Below are positions 3,199 to 9,698 of a stretch of 12,483 nt of DNA, piece by piece (positions within the stretch are counted from its first letter, which is position 1; every line of letters starts with the position of its first letter). The notes beneath the pieces are model-generated. The model was not told where the DNA came from. It ran no database searches and saw only the letters and a list, made by a program, of their open reading frames with translations. Source of the DNA: an archaeon (GTDB taxonomy: Archaea > Aenigmatarchaeota > Aenigmatarchaeia > GW2011-AR5 > GCA-2688965); assembly GCA_002688965.1 (NCBI GenBank), contig NZEE01000119.1, forward strand, positions 1 through 12,483. The letters are read 5' to 3'. The position numbers and the translations under genes were made by a program.

Positions 3199-4323
3199 AT
3201 GTCTGAGATGAAATTATTAATGGAAGGATGGAGACTGTTTCTTAAAGAGACTAGAAGCCAGGCATTCATAGATGAGTTTATGCCTCTTTTGAAGCAGTGG
3301 AATGAGCTTCAAGATGAGTACGGGTACATTCAGACGGGTCGTCACGATCCAGAAGGTAATCCATATGATCCCCCAGGAGAGGGGCAAGATATAGATACGA
3401 GTGAGCTACCTTCATATACTACGTCTAAATTTTATAAACATCATCTTAGAGGCGGTCCCGGTCCAAGAAGAGCACATTTTGCACAGTCAGATAGAGAGGT
3501 TGCAATTGAAAGAAAGCTTTTGCAACTTTTTCAAAAGTATGCAGATCAATCATTCTTTCAAAATCAAGTTACGCTTGTTCATAATTTAAACTATAATGCT
3601 GCAGCTTCAAATATGTTTGGTAACACTCTTGGTTTAGAATTTCCCAAACCTTCAGAAACAAGAGAGGGATATCTCTCAGGTGAGGGAACAAGACATAGAG
3701 ATGTGATGTCATGTCATGGATTTACTGATAATAGACTTAATAGTGCAGGATATGGGATGATATTAAAGGGCCACGTTGTTTTTGCGTCAAGATCAGACTT
3801 GGCATCGCAAACATTGCGTACAGCGCATCAGGATGTAAAAAAAGCATATAAACATTCAGGAATTCCAAAGAGAACTGGACCGGGAAGAGTTCAAGGAAAC
3901 GAAAGGACGCAAGCACTGAGACAGAAAATTCATCAAAGAAAAAGAGAAAGAGCTATTGCAGCTGGTGAAACACCTGCACCAGAGCTAGCCCAGGAAGATC
4001 TTAATAATATGATTAATCAAGTTATTCTTGGTCCAGATGATATTGAGTACAGCATGATAGAAGAAGTTTTAGTTGACAACTGGGTAATCGACGGATGGTA
4101 CTGTCACTTTAATGGAGGAAGACCCTGGCCTGAACATTTTTGGGAAAAAGCATATAAAATAGGAATTCAAAAACCCATATATTCTGTAGGAATGAGCGGG
4201 GAAGTATTAGGAGAGGTAAATCTTGAAGATTACTTTGGAGAAGGCACAGAAGAAGAAAAATCTGAAGATGAAAGACAATATCAGAGAGATGACTTGCGTC
4301 ATGCTCTTGGAACTATGGAGTGA
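3199..4323 (+). CDS. capsid-targeted internal protein, possibly ADP-ribosyltransferase-like (374 aa)
   Basis: The N-terminus MKLLMEGWRLFLKE (from Met4) resembles the T4 capsid-targeting leader (MKTYQEFIAE). It ends in L-K-E17, the L/I-x-E pattern cut by T4-type prohead protease, so the protein is probably packed in the head and injected. The body (about 90-330) shows CH173-G, then GYGMILKGHVVFA (184-196) and E288-E289-V-L-V-D-N. The order His-Gly, K-G-x-x-F-A, Glu-x-[VL]-V-D recalls PARP-like ADP-ribosyltransferases, and T4 Alt is a head-packaged enzyme of that general activity. However, the PARP tyrosine position appears to be Val, so the match is weak and the function stays open. Residues 205-270 are basic (KRTGPGR, RKRERA); the tail is acidic. 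First gene of an operon; the fibre-like gene follows after six bases. Confidence 0.5.
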   Translation: MSEMKLLMEGWRLFLKETRSQAFIDEFMPLLKQWNELQDEYGYIQTGRHDPEGNPYDPPGEGQDIDTSELPSYTTSKFYKHHLRGGPGPRRAHFAQSDREVAIERKLLQLFQKYADQSFFQNQVTLVHNLNYNAAASNMFGNTLGLEFPKPSETREGYLSGEGTRHRDVMSCHGFTDNRLNSAGYGMILKGHVVFASRSDLASQTLRTAHQDVKKAYKHSGIPKRTGPGRVQGNERTQALRQKIHQRKRERAIAAGETPAPELAQEDLNNMINQVILGPDDIEYSMIEEVLVDNWVIDGWYCHFNGGRPWPEHFWEKAYKIGIQKPIYSVGMSGEVLGEVNLEDYFGEGTEEEKSEDERQYQRDDLRHALGTME

Positions 4324-4329
4324 TAATAA

Positions 4330-5145
4330 ATGGCTAGAAAAACTACAATAACAGGCGATGGTGTAAGAGATGATTCAATAACCGGAGACGATGTTGATGA
4401 AAGTACACTGATACTTGACACACTAAGAGATGCTGACGGTGATACAAAAATTCAAGTAGAAGAGTCTGCTGACGGAGATAAAATCAGATTTGATACTGCT
4501 GGGGGCGAACGCATGATCATTACTGAACATGGTCTAGTAGGAATAGGAACAGATGACCCAGACAATACCTTGCACATATTCAGTACTGGACATACCCACT
4601 TAAAGATTCAAAGCGAAGATGGAAGCTATGCCGCTGTAAAAATGAAGTCTGGCACAGGCGGTTCGACGTATGTATGGACACCAGCAGATACCTCAGACAT
4701 ACGCCTTTATGCTGGCGGAGCGGATCGTGTGCATGTAGACAACAACGGAAACGTTGGTTTTGGAACTACAACACCGGCATCCACGCTTTCAGTTGATGGA
4801 AGCATATCTGCAGGAGTGACACTCATAAATACTGGCAATGATCCTGGGACAACCTATTCTGTCGTAGATACAGATTATGTAATTTTAGTTAATACACGAC
4901 CTACACCGCAAGGAGGGATCGACAGCTCTTTAACAATTACTTTACCGCTGGCAGCTTCTTATCCTGGAAGAATTATCGTAGTTAAAGATTCTGGTGGCTA
5001 TTCTAACATAAACAATATAACAATCTCTAGAGCTGGTAGTGATACTATCGAAGGAGTAAACACTACACTTGTACTTAATAATATTGCACAGTTTACTAGA
5101 TTAATCTCTAATGGTGTATCTAACTGGTGTGAGATAGGAAGTTAA
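4330..5145 (+). CDS. tail-fibre-like structural protein (271 aa)
   Basis: Two copies of a fibre motif are visible: LVGIGTDDPDNTLHI (69-83) and NVGFGTTTPASTLSV (141-155). The G-[IF]-G-T-x-x-P-x-x-T-L-x-[IV] pattern is common in phage fibre and tail proteins, often before a knob or chaperone domain. The N-terminus has T-G-D-[GD]-V repeats that may attach to the virion. Residues about 175-271 form a beta-rich end (DTDYVILVNT, LPLAASYPGRIIVVKD, FTRLISNGVSNW), likely the distal receptor-facing domain. It has no intramolecular chaperone. The protein should trimerise on the virion surface; this is inferred from the motif family. GGAG (4316-4319) overlaps the end of the upstream gene. The next gene starts two bases after its stop, so fibre and stator-like genes share one message. 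Confidence 0.75.
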   Translation: MARKTTITGDGVRDDSITGDDVDESTLILDTLRDADGDTKIQVEESADGDKIRFDTAGGERMIITEHGLVGIGTDDPDNTLHIFSTGHTHLKIQSEDGSYAAVKMKSGTGGSTYVWTPADTSDIRLYAGGADRVHVDNNGNVGFGTTTPASTLSVDGSISAGVTLINTGNDPGTTYSVVDTDYVILVNTRPTPQGGIDSSLTITLPLAASYPGRIIVVKDSGGYSNINNITISRAGSDTIEGVNTTLVLNNIAQFTRLISNGVSNWCEIGS

Positions 5146-5147
5146 CA

Positions 5148-5849
5148 GTGGATTCTGGTAGATTTAAATCACCGTGGATATCAATTTCAGATATGATGAC
5201 TGGGTTGATGATGATATTCTTGTTCATAAGTGTCAGCTATTCATATCAAATAAATGAAAAGTCAAAAGACGTCACTGAAAAGCAAGAAAATATAGCAGAT
5301 ATAGTTCAGGAGTGGAAAGATTATAAAAAAGTTATTGCAAATGACTTGCATAAAGAATTTGATAAAGATCTAGCAAGGTGGGATGCATCAATAGACGATG
5401 ATAATTTATCATTTAGATTTGAATCTCCTGAGGTTTTATTTAAAGCAGGAAAGTCGCAGGTTACACCATTGTTTGATGAGATACTTTCAGACTTTTGGCC
5501 TAGATATGTGTCTGTTCTGAATAGACATGACAGCTACATCAGAGAGATAAAAATAGAAGGACATACTTCTAGTGAGTGGTCATCTAATGTTACTCGACAG
5601 GAGTCATACTTTTTAAATATGCAACTTTCTCAAGATAGATCTAGAAATGTTTTACGAGTTTGCTATTCAAATACCGCTGAGATTTTCAAAGAATGGATAA
5701 TATCGTCAACTACTGCCAACGGTTTTTCATTTTCAAGATTAATATATAGTGAAGAAGGGGCAGAAGATATAGATAAAAGTAGAAGAGTAGAGTTTACTAT
5801 AATGGTAGACTCGGAAACAAAAATTAATGAGATATCGGATAAATTATGA
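5148..5849 (+). CDS. ZorB/MotB-like stator subunit: TM helix plus OmpA-like domain (233 aa)
   Basis: Residues 10-31 read PWISISDMMTGLMMIFLFIS onward: a single membrane helix with D15 at its cytoplasmic start, the position and context of the proton-carrying Asp of MotB, ZorB and ExbD/TolR proteins. A short linker and helix (35-75) lead to an OmpA-like peptidoglycan-binding domain (about 85-222). Its motifs are IEGHTSS (136-142), LSQDRSRNV (160-168), NGFS (191-194) and DKSRRVEF (209-216), including the Arg that contacts peptidoglycan in this family. The length fits ZorB. It would plug and anchor a proton channel formed with the next gene's product, in the inner membrane and periplasm. GTG 5148 follows TAGGAAG (5136-5142). 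Its stop overlaps the next start (ATGA). Family assignment is firm; ZorB rather than MotB is a judgement from size and partner. Confidence 0.85.
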   Translation: MDSGRFKSPWISISDMMTGLMMIFLFISVSYSYQINEKSKDVTEKQENIADIVQEWKDYKKVIANDLHKEFDKDLARWDASIDDDNLSFRFESPEVLFKAGKSQVTPLFDEILSDFWPRYVSVLNRHDSYIREIKIEGHTSSEWSSNVTRQESYFLNMQLSQDRSRNVLRVCYSNTAEIFKEWIISSTTANGFSFSRLIYSEEGAEDIDKSRRVEFTIMVDSETKINEISDKL

Positions 5850-6583
5850 TAATATTTGAATATTTTGAGATGCTTTCGCTTTTGCCAATAGTATTCTTAA
5901 TTCCGCTTTTAGTGTCCTATGTTACGCAAAAAAAATTTGGCAATGTCGATCCCAGGAAGCTAGCATACGGCTCGACATCACTTGGTGTTTTTCTTACGTT
6001 TGTTGGAATTTGGCACGGGCTGATAGGGTTTGATGTATTAAATACCGAAGAGTCTATTCCTATTCTTCTTGAAGGTCTTAAGGTTGCATTCGGATCTTCA
6101 ATATGCGGTCTAGGATCATCTCTATTTATTAATCTGTTTTTTGTAAGTTCAAAAGAACCTGATGAGAGATCACTAGATAATATTGAAGATCTTTTGGTTG
6201 ATTTGAATACAAGTTTTGAAAATTTTTCCATAAATCTTGCTGAAGCAAATATTGATGCTTTAAATACATCTATAGAAAATATGGTTGCAAGCTTGGAAAT
6301 GGGAATAAACACAGAGACACACGAGACCATTGCAAAGTTTAAAGACTCCATTGATATGCTTCAGGCCTGGCAGAAAAAATATGTCAAAGAGATAGAAGTT
6401 GTAACTGAAGCAATGGATAAGAATGCAATAGTGACAAGGGAAACATCGTTGCAACTAGATAAAGCAAATACTGTTTTGAAAGAACTTAAGCCTGTTACTG
6501 AAACTATTGCAGCAAGTATAGGATGGGTTCAGACAGCACTTCCATCATTTAGACCAAGAATAGATAAGTCTGAAAAAAAGTAA
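5846..6583 (+). CDS. ZorA/MotA-like proton-channel subunit with shortened helical tail (245 aa)
   Basis: Three hydrophobic segments are seen (about 8-27, 41-62, 82-101). Segment two has LGVFLTFVGIWHGLIGFD (46-63). The third is preceded by GLKVAFGSSICGLGSS (77-92). This pair of small-residue-rich helices with a G-x-F-x-T-F-x-G and a G-L-K-x-A-F-x-[ST]-S-x-x-G-L motif is the signature of the MotA/TolQ/ExbB channel family and most resembles ZorA of Zorya defence systems. Residues 103-245 are predicted helical (many Leu/Ile heptads), much shorter than the long tail of canonical ZorA. With the preceding protein it should form a proton-driven stator. The gene order B-then-A is the reverse of Zorya operons. 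Start overlaps the upstream stop by four bases, giving translational coupling. No zorC, zorD or zorE follows. Confidence 0.8.
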   Translation: MIIFEYFEMLSLLPIVFLIPLLVSYVTQKKFGNVDPRKLAYGSTSLGVFLTFVGIWHGLIGFDVLNTEESIPILLEGLKVAFGSSICGLGSSLFINLFFVSSKEPDERSLDNIEDLLVDLNTSFENFSINLAEANIDALNTSIENMVASLEMGINTETHETIAKFKDSIDMLQAWQKKYVKEIEVVTEAMDKNAIVTRETSLQLDKANTVLKELKPVTETIAASIGWVQTALPSFRPRIDKSEKK

Positions 6584-6687: not shown

Positions 6688-7608
6688 ATGAGTTCAAGAT
6701 TACTAGTAGAATCATGGAGATCTTTTCTTAGTGAAGGAAGAGAGGAAGATACTATACCAAAAATAGGTGTAGTTACAACAACCAAAAATCCATCCAACCT
6801 TAATGAATGGCTTTCATATCATAAGAATGCAGGTGTAGATAAAATACTTTTATTTTTTGATGATATTGACAATGATATTGGCAATGTTAGAATTTCACAC
6901 ATGCATGAAGGTATTCACACATTTAAAAGCAATAAAAGTGTAAAAGGTACCCACTATAATAGACAGATAGCAAATTGTCAAAGAGGAATAAATATTTTAA
7001 CAGAAATGGGATGCAAGTGGGTATTTCACATAGATGATGATGAACTAATATATTCAAAATCGAAAGAGAAGATCGGCGAGTCAATCACACGCGAACTCAT
7101 AGCTTCAGATACACACGCTATTAGACTTCAAAATTATGAAAACTTACGAATGAATCGTGAATATAAAAACTATAATTACTTTAAAGATGAAAATGTGTTT
7201 GTAGAGAGAGGATTATATGCTTATGGTGGTATTGAAGTAGGTGGGGGAAAAACAGCAATGAATACTGATTATTCTCACTTTTTATATCCTGACGGGGTAC
7301 ATTTTTTTAAACACATGACTGAGTCTATCAATAACCACATATCAAAAGATTTGATTATCCTTCACTACCCACACAACGTTTATGAGAGATTTATTGATAA
7401 GTGTTCTACACGAGGAAATACAACATGTCCCTGGGGAGTATATAAAAAAATATATGAAATGGTTAGAGATGGCAAACCAGACAAGGAATTAAAGGAAACT
7501 TACAGAAAAAATATAATTTATAACAGTGATAGGATTCAAGAATTATCAAAATTAGGTAGAGAAATATTTAAATTTGAAATGGAAGATCAGCTTTTTATCA
7601 ATTCTTGA
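6688..7608 (+). CDS. capsid-targeted glycosyltransferase-like protein (GT92/Glyco_tranf_2_4, 306 aa)
   Basis: The leader LLVESWRSFLSE (5-16) followed by Gly17 matches the leader at 3199 in the pattern LL-x-E-x-W-R-x-F-L-x-E. It ends in L-S-E/G, an expected prohead-protease cut site. The body is a GT-A glycosyltransferase: IGVVTTTKN (26-34), NEWLSYHKNAGVDKILLF (39-56), the metal-binding D-D-D-E at 116-119 in WVFHIDDDELIY, and late ILHYPHNVYERF. These are the landmarks of GT92-type enzymes. The protein would therefore be packaged in the phage head and delivered with the DNA, a place where glycosyltransferases are not usually expected. Its sugar and acceptor are unknown. It is transcribed alone from its own TAAATA box. 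If the leader is not a targeting signal, it is an ordinary cytosolic enzyme. Confidence 0.7.
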   Translation: MSSRLLVESWRSFLSEGREEDTIPKIGVVTTTKNPSNLNEWLSYHKNAGVDKILLFFDDIDNDIGNVRISHMHEGIHTFKSNKSVKGTHYNRQIANCQRGINILTEMGCKWVFHIDDDELIYSKSKEKIGESITRELIASDTHAIRLQNYENLRMNREYKNYNYFKDENVFVERGLYAYGGIEVGGGKTAMNTDYSHFLYPDGVHFFKHMTESINNHISKDLIILHYPHNVYERFIDKCSTRGNTTCPWGVYKKIYEMVRDGKPDKELKETYRKNIIYNSDRIQELSKLGREIFKFEMEDQLFINS

Positions 7609-8076: not shown

Positions 8077-8280
8077 ATGAATATTAAAAATATTACAAGA
8101 GATAGATTTTCAGCTAAGAAGAAAATCGTATCTGTAATTCACGTAAGAGATGACTACGACGATATTACTGATGAAATAGAAAGATCTTTAATGGTTTTAA
8201 AGGAAGAGATGGATCTTCCCACAGAAGAGGTTGAAACAGCTATTCTTTCTAGGAGAATGTCTAGAGATAATATTAGATGA
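8077..8280 (+). CDS. small charged protein of unknown function (67 aa)
   Basis: ATG 8077 follows a strong AAAAGGAG (8066-8073) with a short A-rich spacer. The protein is highly charged. It has a basic start (TRDRFSAKKK, 7-16), a short hydrophobic strand (IVSVIHV), and then an acidic helix-rich part (DDYDDITDEIERSLMVLKEEMD) ending in RRMSRDNIR. No membrane segment, signal or catalytic motif is visible. It lies 27 bases after the SH3-like gene and 43 bases before the FtsZ-like gene, so it may be a partner or regulator of that GTPase; this is inference from position only. Confidence 0.7.
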   Translation: MNIKNITRDRFSAKKKIVSVIHVRDDYDDITDEIERSLMVLKEEMDLPTEEVETAILSRRMSRDNIR

Positions 8281-8323: not shown

Positions 8324-9469
8324 GTGACTACAAAAGATGAAAAAAAGATAGAAAGTTCACAAAATGCTGATGTTTCTGAGAAAACAGGCAAAGAAAAGGA
8401 CGATATTTATAATGATTTCACGTACACTGATCAATTTGCTGATGAGGACTTTGGGTTTCTGGGAAGCTACGATGAGCCAGAAATTAAAGATGAAATGCTT
8501 TTGCCAGAGAACACAGTAAAATCTGCTATCAGCTGTGGATTTTTAGGTATTGGTGGCGGCGGCGGAAAAATTGCAAAAGCATTTTTAGATATAGGGTTTA
8601 ATAAAACAGTTCTTATAAATACGACACACAAGGATCAACCAGCCTCTCTTGACAAGAGACACTTTCTTTTACTTGAGGGCGCTGACGGTGTTGGAAAAGA
8701 TGTTGAGCTAGGAAAAAAAATTCTATCAGACAATAGTACTGCCGTAGAAGATTGTCTTTCAACTAGATTTGGAAAAGTTGACTGGGTTTTCGTGATAGTC
8801 GGCGGCGGCGGCGGAACAGGATCAGCAGCAGGAATACTTCACGATCCAATTGAGAGGTATATGAAGTCTGTAGGATCTTCGGGAAGAGTAGTATATATTG
8901 TAAGTAAACCCACTGCCAAGGAACTTTTAAATTCAACAATTGAGTCAAATTATGAATCTATACTAGAGGATGTTTCCGAATATCCCCATCTAATAATAGA
9001 CAATGAAAGACAGGTTCAACTACTAAGAGGGAGAGTTGGAATGCTTAACATGTATCCTGTTGCAAATACAACATTTGCAAAGTTACTTAGTCAAGTACTA
9101 AGCCTTGCAAGTCAACCTTCACCAATTCAGACTTTTGATACAAAAGATCTAGAACGATGTTTGAGAAAAGATGGGAGAATTTTTATTGGAAGTACAGTTG
9201 TTAAAAATCCCAATAATAGGGATCTAGGAACTATAGTCTTTCAAGGGTCAATGAAAGGTTCGCCGTGCCCTTCACCTACGCCTGGATCAAAAAATGGTGT
9301 CCTTTTACTTATAGTGACATCTGAAATGGCGTCTAACCCAGATGTAAGTAAAAGCCTAGAATCGGCAATGTCATACGTTGGGGGAAGAACAGAGACTCTA
9401 TTTAGCGGTGTTTATATTAATGAGAAAATTCCTGGACTGATAGGAATTACGCTATTTAGTGGAATGTAA
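8324..9469 (+). CDS. FtsZ/tubulin-superfamily GTPase (381 aa)
   Basis: Tubulin/FtsZ landmarks appear in order: T1 loop GFLGIGGGGGKIAKAF (72-87), INTTHKDQ (98-105), EGADGVGKD (118-126), and the GTP-binding signature GGGGGTGSAAG (160-170, FtsZ GGGTGTG). A T7/synergy-loop-like FDTKDLERCL (271-280) has Asp residues placed to activate GTP hydrolysis across a polymer contact. The C-terminal domain ends LFSGVYINEKIPGLIGITLFSGM, like the last FtsZ strands. Residues 1-65 are an extra acidic extension, and the protein stops at the fold's last strand, so the FtsZ tail that binds FtsA/ZipA is missing. It should polymerise with GTP. Phage relatives (PhuZ, TubZ) position DNA or a phage nucleus; interference with host division is the alternative. 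Starts at GTG after AAGGAG (8312-8317). Confidence 0.85.
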   Translation: MTTKDEKKIESSQNADVSEKTGKEKDDIYNDFTYTDQFADEDFGFLGSYDEPEIKDEMLLPENTVKSAISCGFLGIGGGGGKIAKAFLDIGFNKTVLINTTHKDQPASLDKRHFLLLEGADGVGKDVELGKKILSDNSTAVEDCLSTRFGKVDWVFVIVGGGGGTGSAAGILHDPIERYMKSVGSSGRVVYIVSKPTAKELLNSTIESNYESILEDVSEYPHLIIDNERQVQLLRGRVGMLNMYPVANTTFAKLLSQVLSLASQPSPIQTFDTKDLERCLRKDGRIFIGSTVVKNPNNRDLGTIVFQGSMKGSPCPSPTPGSKNGVLLLIVTSEMASNPDVSKSLESAMSYVGGRTETLFSGVYINEKIPGLIGITLFSGM

Positions 9470-9473
9470 TAAT

Positions 9474-9698
9474 TTAAAAAGTAATATATGGTTTTATTTT
9501 GGCTAAAATCTTTTTCTCAATTTGGCAAACTCTCATTCTAGTAATTCCAAATATATCTCCAATCTCCTGTAGCGTCATCGGCCCTGCTTGTGCACCTATA
9601 AGTGTGCAATTTTTCATATTCTCTGACTCAATCCATAATCTGCAAGATCTTTTTTCACAACATTCATTTTTACTTTTACATAGCTCATAACATTTCAT
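9474..9698 (-). CDS. Cys-rich sigma-70 region 4-like DNA-binding protein (74 aa)
   Basis: The C-terminal half, GPMTLQEIGDIFGITRMRVC then QIEKKILAKI, is a sigma region 4.2 helix-turn-helix: T-L-x-E-[IV]-G-x-x-x-G-[IV]-T-R-x-R-[IV]-x-Q-I-E, the part that reads the -35 box. Regions 2 and 3 are absent. The N-terminal 32 residues carry six cysteines (C3, C7, C13, C14, C19, C31), probably a metal site. It may bind host RNA polymerase or DNA and redirect transcription; T4-type phages use small sigma-like proteins for late genes. The minus-strand start has AAGGTG at suitable spacing (about 9704-9709). It is the only minus-strand gene seen, stopping 4 bases from the end of the FtsZ-like gene and divergent from phoH. 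Confidence 0.8.
   Translation of the reverse strand: MKCYELCKSKNECCEKRSCRLWIESENMKNCTLIGAQAGPMTLQEIGDIFGITRMRVCQIEKKILAKIKPYITF

Follow-up and report, generated by a model that had tools for sequence, protein, structure and literature searches.

A phage-borne, short-rod version of a Zorya-type motor with a conserved rod tip of its own

Bacteria are known to use ion-driven stators of 5:2 stoichiometry in motility, in defence and for envelope energy, and the locus described here raises the question of what such a pair does in a phage. The window (the whole stretch of DNA analysed, 12,483 nucleotides) belongs to a contig that is phage-like, and the neighbours of the pair in it include a PhoH-like gene, tail-fibre-like genes and an FtsZ/tubulin-like gene. 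Two coupled open reading frames recognised at 5148..6583 in the initial annotation are both present, on the plus strand: a ZorB-like gene (5148..5849, 233 aa, GTG start), whose product consists of a membrane helix carrying D15, a linker and a peptidoglycan-binding OmpA-like domain (with H139, S141 and R212), and a ZorA-like gene (5846..6583, 245 aa, ATG start), whose product has predicted membrane helices at residues 9-27, 36-61 and 67-99 followed by a short cytoplasmic rod. The 2-base spacing given there between the tail-fibre-like gene directly upstream (4330..5145, plus strand) and the ZorB-like gene is correct; the 4 bases given for the junction of the ZorB-like and ZorA-like genes are an overlap and not a gap. 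The gene at 3199-4323 stops 6 bases ahead of the fibre gene. A single late-type promoter had been proposed for this series of genes and finds no support, as TATAAATA occurs in 4 copies compared with 1.5 expected, at least 4 copies arise in 11 of 200 shuffles, and the copy just ahead of 3199 lies on the minus strand.

The pair recurs in six IMG/VR contigs, of 12, 25, 69, 143, 180 and 281 kb. Those of 143, 180 and 281 kb are identical across the pair (1432/1432 bases) and are counted once, so that the distinct phage-type contigs, the window included, number five. The same three (3/6 related contigs) have a T4-type terminase, which is related at 37-40% identity to those of, among others, Flavobacterium and Microcystis phages. 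Contigs of up to 302 kb occur in the list of ZorA relatives, and contigs of 289,811, 290,957 and 274,171 bases appear in both the ZorA and ZorB lists, as expected for a pair. Since a search for integrase gave no match in nine contigs (with a control that was positive in 14/14 genomes), the phages carrying the pair are probably lytic. Coupling to a fibre gene, which had been read as part of the arrangement, is confined to the window (1/5 distinct contigs); the other four have different genes before the pair, encoding HSP20 (L001), DUF6356 (L005), PEPCK (L009) and a 77-aa protein that is weakly DUF3006-like, below cut-off (L006). After the pair comes a glycosyltransferase gene in the window, one for a 67-aa-type protein in L001 and L005, and a thymidine kinase gene in L006 and L009. 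These varied neighbours look accessory; no direct neighbour is conserved across the five distinct contigs, and no effector or partner was found. A small protein whose conserved core reads TDEIE...PTEE...SRR (8077-8280 in the window, L005 10752-10961 and L001 8955-9239) is a possible candidate partner; in L001 and L005 its gene follows zorA immediately, and in the window it lies farther downstream. The phage contigs were also seen to encode an ATP-type PEP carboxykinase (L009 7686-9158), a full-length DnaK/HSP70 (L006 3985-5874), and both SpoVR and PrkA kinase (L005 368-3659).

Several further features were observed in the window. The genes at 3199-4323 and 6688-7608 encode unrelated proteins, one of them a glycosyltransferase, that have in common an N-terminal leader LLxExWRxFLxE, which we take to be reminiscent of a capsid-targeting sequence; the pattern, which was written after both had been viewed, occurs in 2/105 open reading frames and in no shuffled ones. 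A G+C-rich repeat of 41 bases is present in three copies (622-662, 918-958 and 1189-1229, 63-100% identical to the reference copy), each after a small gene, and may be a terminator or processing signal that these genes have in common. At 108-139 a reading frame runs, at its end, into a stretch that by eye resembles the 3' end of a tRNA or tmRNA, where ARAGORN and Rfam report no RNA; that frame has a relative, also recognised by eye, at L005 6701-7084. A small protein encoded on the minus strand at 9474-9698 has a C-terminal sigma-70 region 4 (Pfam 1e-10), and by eye also occurs before PhoH in L001 and L005.

Comparison with known families shows that the nearest relative of both proteins is Zorya type II, so that the original assignment to Zorya rather than to flagellar or Tol-type stators holds by sequence, and Zorya-type homology is as good as certain. 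The outcomes named at the outset as contrary to it, best matches to flagellar MotAB or plain TolQ/OmpA and a bacterial contig with zorE nearby, did not come up in the searches made. For the ZorB-like protein, described at the outset as MotB/ZorB-like with an OmpA-like domain, the PADLOC ZorB2 profile gives E 1.5e-78 and Pfam OmpA 2.4e-8, while the NCBIfam ZorB2 equivalog gives 183.9 bits, relative to a cut-off of 400. Among solved structures, searched with a profile from relatives, the top match is 8VVI_A (E 2.8e-55), and the predicted structure matches 8VVI_B with E 2e-17 and TM 0.70. The aspartate singled out in its membrane helix, D15, corresponds in the alignment to D21, which is the ion aspartate in ZorB of S. 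kujiense (PMC11890865). Residues were counted in 119 of the best 120 among 2824 ZorB relatives: D15 is present in 103/103 of those covering the position (16 fall short of it), H139 and S141 in 119/119 and R212 in 118/118. In ZorB II, residues D24, H141, S143 and R215 (numbers mapped via the 235-aa Enterobacter ZorB2 of locus L050) are required for defence, and the last three also for wall binding (PMC11890865). E. coli ZorB2 R230 is also required for wall binding (PMC11890865); its equivalent is not conserved in phage ZorB-like proteins and is an arginine in just 35/80 bacterial ZorB2.

The ZorA-like protein matches the PADLOC ZorA2 profile with E 2.4e-21, the best stretch being the membrane part, which bears out its earlier description as a MotA/ZorA-like channel. 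It scores 39.2 bits with the NCBIfam ZorA2 equivalog (cut-off 700), and a Pfam search gave no family passing its cut-off. With a profile from relatives the top solved structure is again from 8VVI (8VVI_F, E 1.1e-18), the match extending over the head and rod base. The structure model is of low confidence (mean pLDDT 58, most of the rod below 55) and shows three helices in the membrane and two in the rod (109-153 and 156-231); its membrane part is about equally similar to ZorA, ExbB, TolQ and PomA, and the fold alone does not separate these families. Among 119 short protein clusters listed as ZorA relatives (11 of which, below 225 aa, are probably fragments), T51 is present in 111/112, S84 in 113/115, W175 in 115/117 and Q176 in 117/117. 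Because the ion-path and wall-binding residues of the two proteins are nearly invariant, the pair is probably a working ion-driven motor, and a ZorAB/MotAB-like way of working is well supported by these residues together with homology; judged from these alignments, ion conduction and attachment to the wall both seem to have been under selection, a pattern that is silent on what the motor is for.

The short tail remarked on in the window proves to be a trait of the whole clade: the rod has a median length of 146.5 residues in 112 phage sequences, compared with 431 in 66 bacterial sequences (those longer than 340 aa). What remains of it has two parts. The base module of the phage rod (about residues 112-186; 6179..6403, plus strand) has its homologue in the first module of the bacterial ZorA2 rod, and this module is about equally conserved in the phage and bacterial groups (0.48 vs 0.52 identity at a head identity of 0.5-0.6). 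The rod then ends in a phage-specific conserved tip (about residues 187-236; 6404..6553, plus strand). Bacterial ZorA2 likewise ends in a conserved tip motif (the tip being defined in the present analysis), and bacterial tip profiles trained on one half of the sequences and tested on the other (39/39 and 33/38) match 72/77 held-out bacterial or AB-order proteins and 0/112 phage proteins. The phage rod tip is strongly conserved as well, and its profile matches 0/77 bacterial or AB-order proteins. This difference makes the signalling target of ZorA directly testable, and a conserved phage pair with another rod tip provides a natural test of the tip's job in Zorya. In bacterial Zorya, loss of the ZorA tail abolishes defence (PMC11890865).

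The reversed gene order is also a trait of the clade, B preceding A in 5/5 distinct phage-type contigs. Among the best 80 of at least 458 genome loci, A precedes B in 72 of the 73 in which A was found (7/80 are without A), as it does in 14/14 other viral-contig loci. The sole B-first genome locus among those 80 lies in a Thiovulum MAG (L037 1512-2869); it has a short A (213 aa) and no ZorE within 3 kb, falls on the bacterial side of the tree, and may be a second, independent short-rod arrangement. ZorE, the nickase of Zorya type II, was found in 72/80 genome loci (the same best 80 of at least 458) and 12/14 AB-order viral loci, counts that are partly circular because the ZorE profile was grown on the same loci, and in 0/12 phage-type loci (the window and 11 loci from the six contigs). 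A whole-contig search agrees with the reported lack of zorE, with 0/6 related contigs positive (contigs that are possibly incomplete) and a positive bacterial control; for ZorC (PF15611) the result was also 0/6 contigs, the control likewise being positive nowhere. In trees the phage sequences lie on one side of a branch, with SH-aLRT support of 99 (105 sequences), 100/99 (56 sequences) and 100/100 (58 sequences). The phage clade in the 100/100 tree has 15 members; with the midpoint rooting used, which places the root outside the clade, the phage-type pairs would form a single clade with one origin.

A shortened rod and an effector that was not found are what would be expected of a captured Zorya fragment that has no function and is being lost. 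This interpretation is disfavoured, and indeed scarcely credible, as the functional residues are nearly invariant, both genes are open in five distinct contigs, and the rod base is conserved about as it is in bacteria. The combination of an invariant ion aspartate with a different, conserved tip leads us to lean to a working motor with a partner of its own.

How regularly the pair occurs was evaluated with the aid of the FtsZ/tubulin-like GTPase gene of the window (8324-9469, 381 aa), whose product has a glycine-rich GTP-binding loop; among solved proteins, bacterial FtsZ comes closest to it in sequence, the PhuZ profile giving just 4e-4. This gene is found at 61-62% identity in 4/6 related contigs, the other two being the 12- and 25-kb records. 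It has 136 relatives in IMG/VR, of which 80 were kept (54-68% identical, on contigs of up to 293 kb), and none in INPHARED, and it looks like a marker of a large uncultured phage group. The pair was searched for in the 31 of these 80 contigs that are at least 52 kb long; it is present in 3/31, all three known carriers beforehand, and neither gene was matched in the other 28 (including contigs of 293, 284, 267, 242 and 202 kb), some of which are near-copies of one another and all of which are possibly fragments. Because contigs as long as the 281-kb carrier are without a match, the pair looks like an accessory module and the large phage group looks patchy for it.

This distribution bears on two further interpretations. 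The rod might turn or anchor a filament of the FtsZ/tubulin-like protein encoded nearby, and the window does have both genes, as do 4/6 related contigs (the two exceptions being the short ones); yet 28/28 further contigs with the FtsZ-like gene gave no match to the pair, and in the 281-kb contig about 27 kb separate the two, so that a cytoskeletal partner is very improbable. Alternatively, the motor might drain or draw on the proton gradient, be it for uptake, for the assembly of virions or to set the time of lysis. Such a membrane-energy device is consistent with the intact ion path and wall anchor, but we consider it improbable: the pair looks accessory, and by eye and domain search no lysis genes were seen beside it in the contigs read. 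The role in assembly or release suggested earlier likewise fits poorly with a pair that is unmatched in 28 further FtsZ-like contigs, because a more regular presence would be expected for assembly or lysis.

In the mechanism that we propose, the pair would form a Zorya II-like stator that is driven by ions and sits in the inner membrane; a ZorA pentamer round a ZorB dimer is expected for it. An infecting phage would insert the motor into the host inner membrane, where ZorB would hold peptidoglycan, ion flow would rotate ZorA with its short rod, and the phage-specific tip would relay this rotation to a partner other than ZorE. By analogy with what is thought for bacterial ZorAB, the motor would sense disturbance of the envelope. 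We tentatively place its role in conflict with other phages, most likely the exclusion of superinfecting phages by way of a new partner. Exclusion would explain why the ion aspartate is invariant and why there is a new tip; it is weakened by the missing partner, by the fact that the ZorA tail is essential in bacterial Zorya, and by the lack of conservation at R230. The main rival is an anti-Zorya poison, in which short phage subunits would either join host ZorA/ZorB in mixed complexes or compete with them for sites on the wall. The resulting motors would be unable to reach ZorE, and host Zorya II would fail. The parts needed for assembly are kept (membrane helices, rod base and wall domain), the long rod and ZorE, both needed for defence, are gone, phage and bacterial proteins share 58% identity in the ZorB membrane helix, compared with 66% among bacterial ones, and a patchy presence suits counter-defence genes. 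A poison could, however, do without ion flow and without a new tip, whereas D15 is invariant among the relatives counted and the tip is strongly conserved; the pairs form a single clade and not the repeated captures that would follow host ZorAB; and the phage ZorA head is only 40% identical to bacterial heads, which are themselves 49% identical to one another. On balance we regard poisoning as somewhat unlikely. With the exclusion of superinfecting phages as the preferred role, the broader account would be that lytic large phages turned a bacterial alarm motor into a machine of their own, with a short rod, a new tip, ZorE dropped and an unlinked partner, by which rivals are detected and excluded; taken as a whole this is a possible but doubtful history. 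Viruses do seem to have adopted the bacterial alarm motor, and the pair bears on how ZorAB behaves without ZorE and on whether a phage uses a defence motor for itself or against its host.

Among known systems, flagellar MotA-MotB/PomAB is not the best match: the ZorB-like protein scores 22-28 bits with NCBIfam MotB models compared with 184 bits with ZorB2, and NCBIfam lists no MotA model for the ZorA-like protein. Unlike ExbB-ExbD and TolQ-TolR, the phage ZorB-like protein carries an OmpA-like wall domain, and neither Pfam nor NCBIfam lists an ExbB/TolQ or ExbD/TolR family for either protein. Zorya type I (8QYD from E. coli, 8VVN from Shewanella) has the same stator architecture, but its sequence match is weaker (ZorB-like protein 4.4e-9 to 8VVN_B, ZorA-like protein 2.8e-4 to 8QYH_A) and its ZorA chains, at 696-729 aa, are much longer than the phage ZorA. 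Zorya type II (8VVI from Sulfuricurvum kujiense, and E. coli ATCC 8739) is matched over the full length of ZorB and over the head and rod base of ZorA, and shares the ion aspartate, the channel hydroxyl residues (Ser/Thr), the wall-binding H/S/R and the three ZorA membrane helices. The phage pair differs from it in its B-A order (type II having zorA-zorB-zorE), a rod of about one third the length, a different tip, a ZorE that was not found, and its confinement to a single, phage-borne clade. Because it departs from type II in rod length, tip, ZorE and gene order, this relative of Zorya II should not be filed as Zorya; the phage-borne short-rod pair is a new version of the known Zorya-type motor, not a Zorya system.
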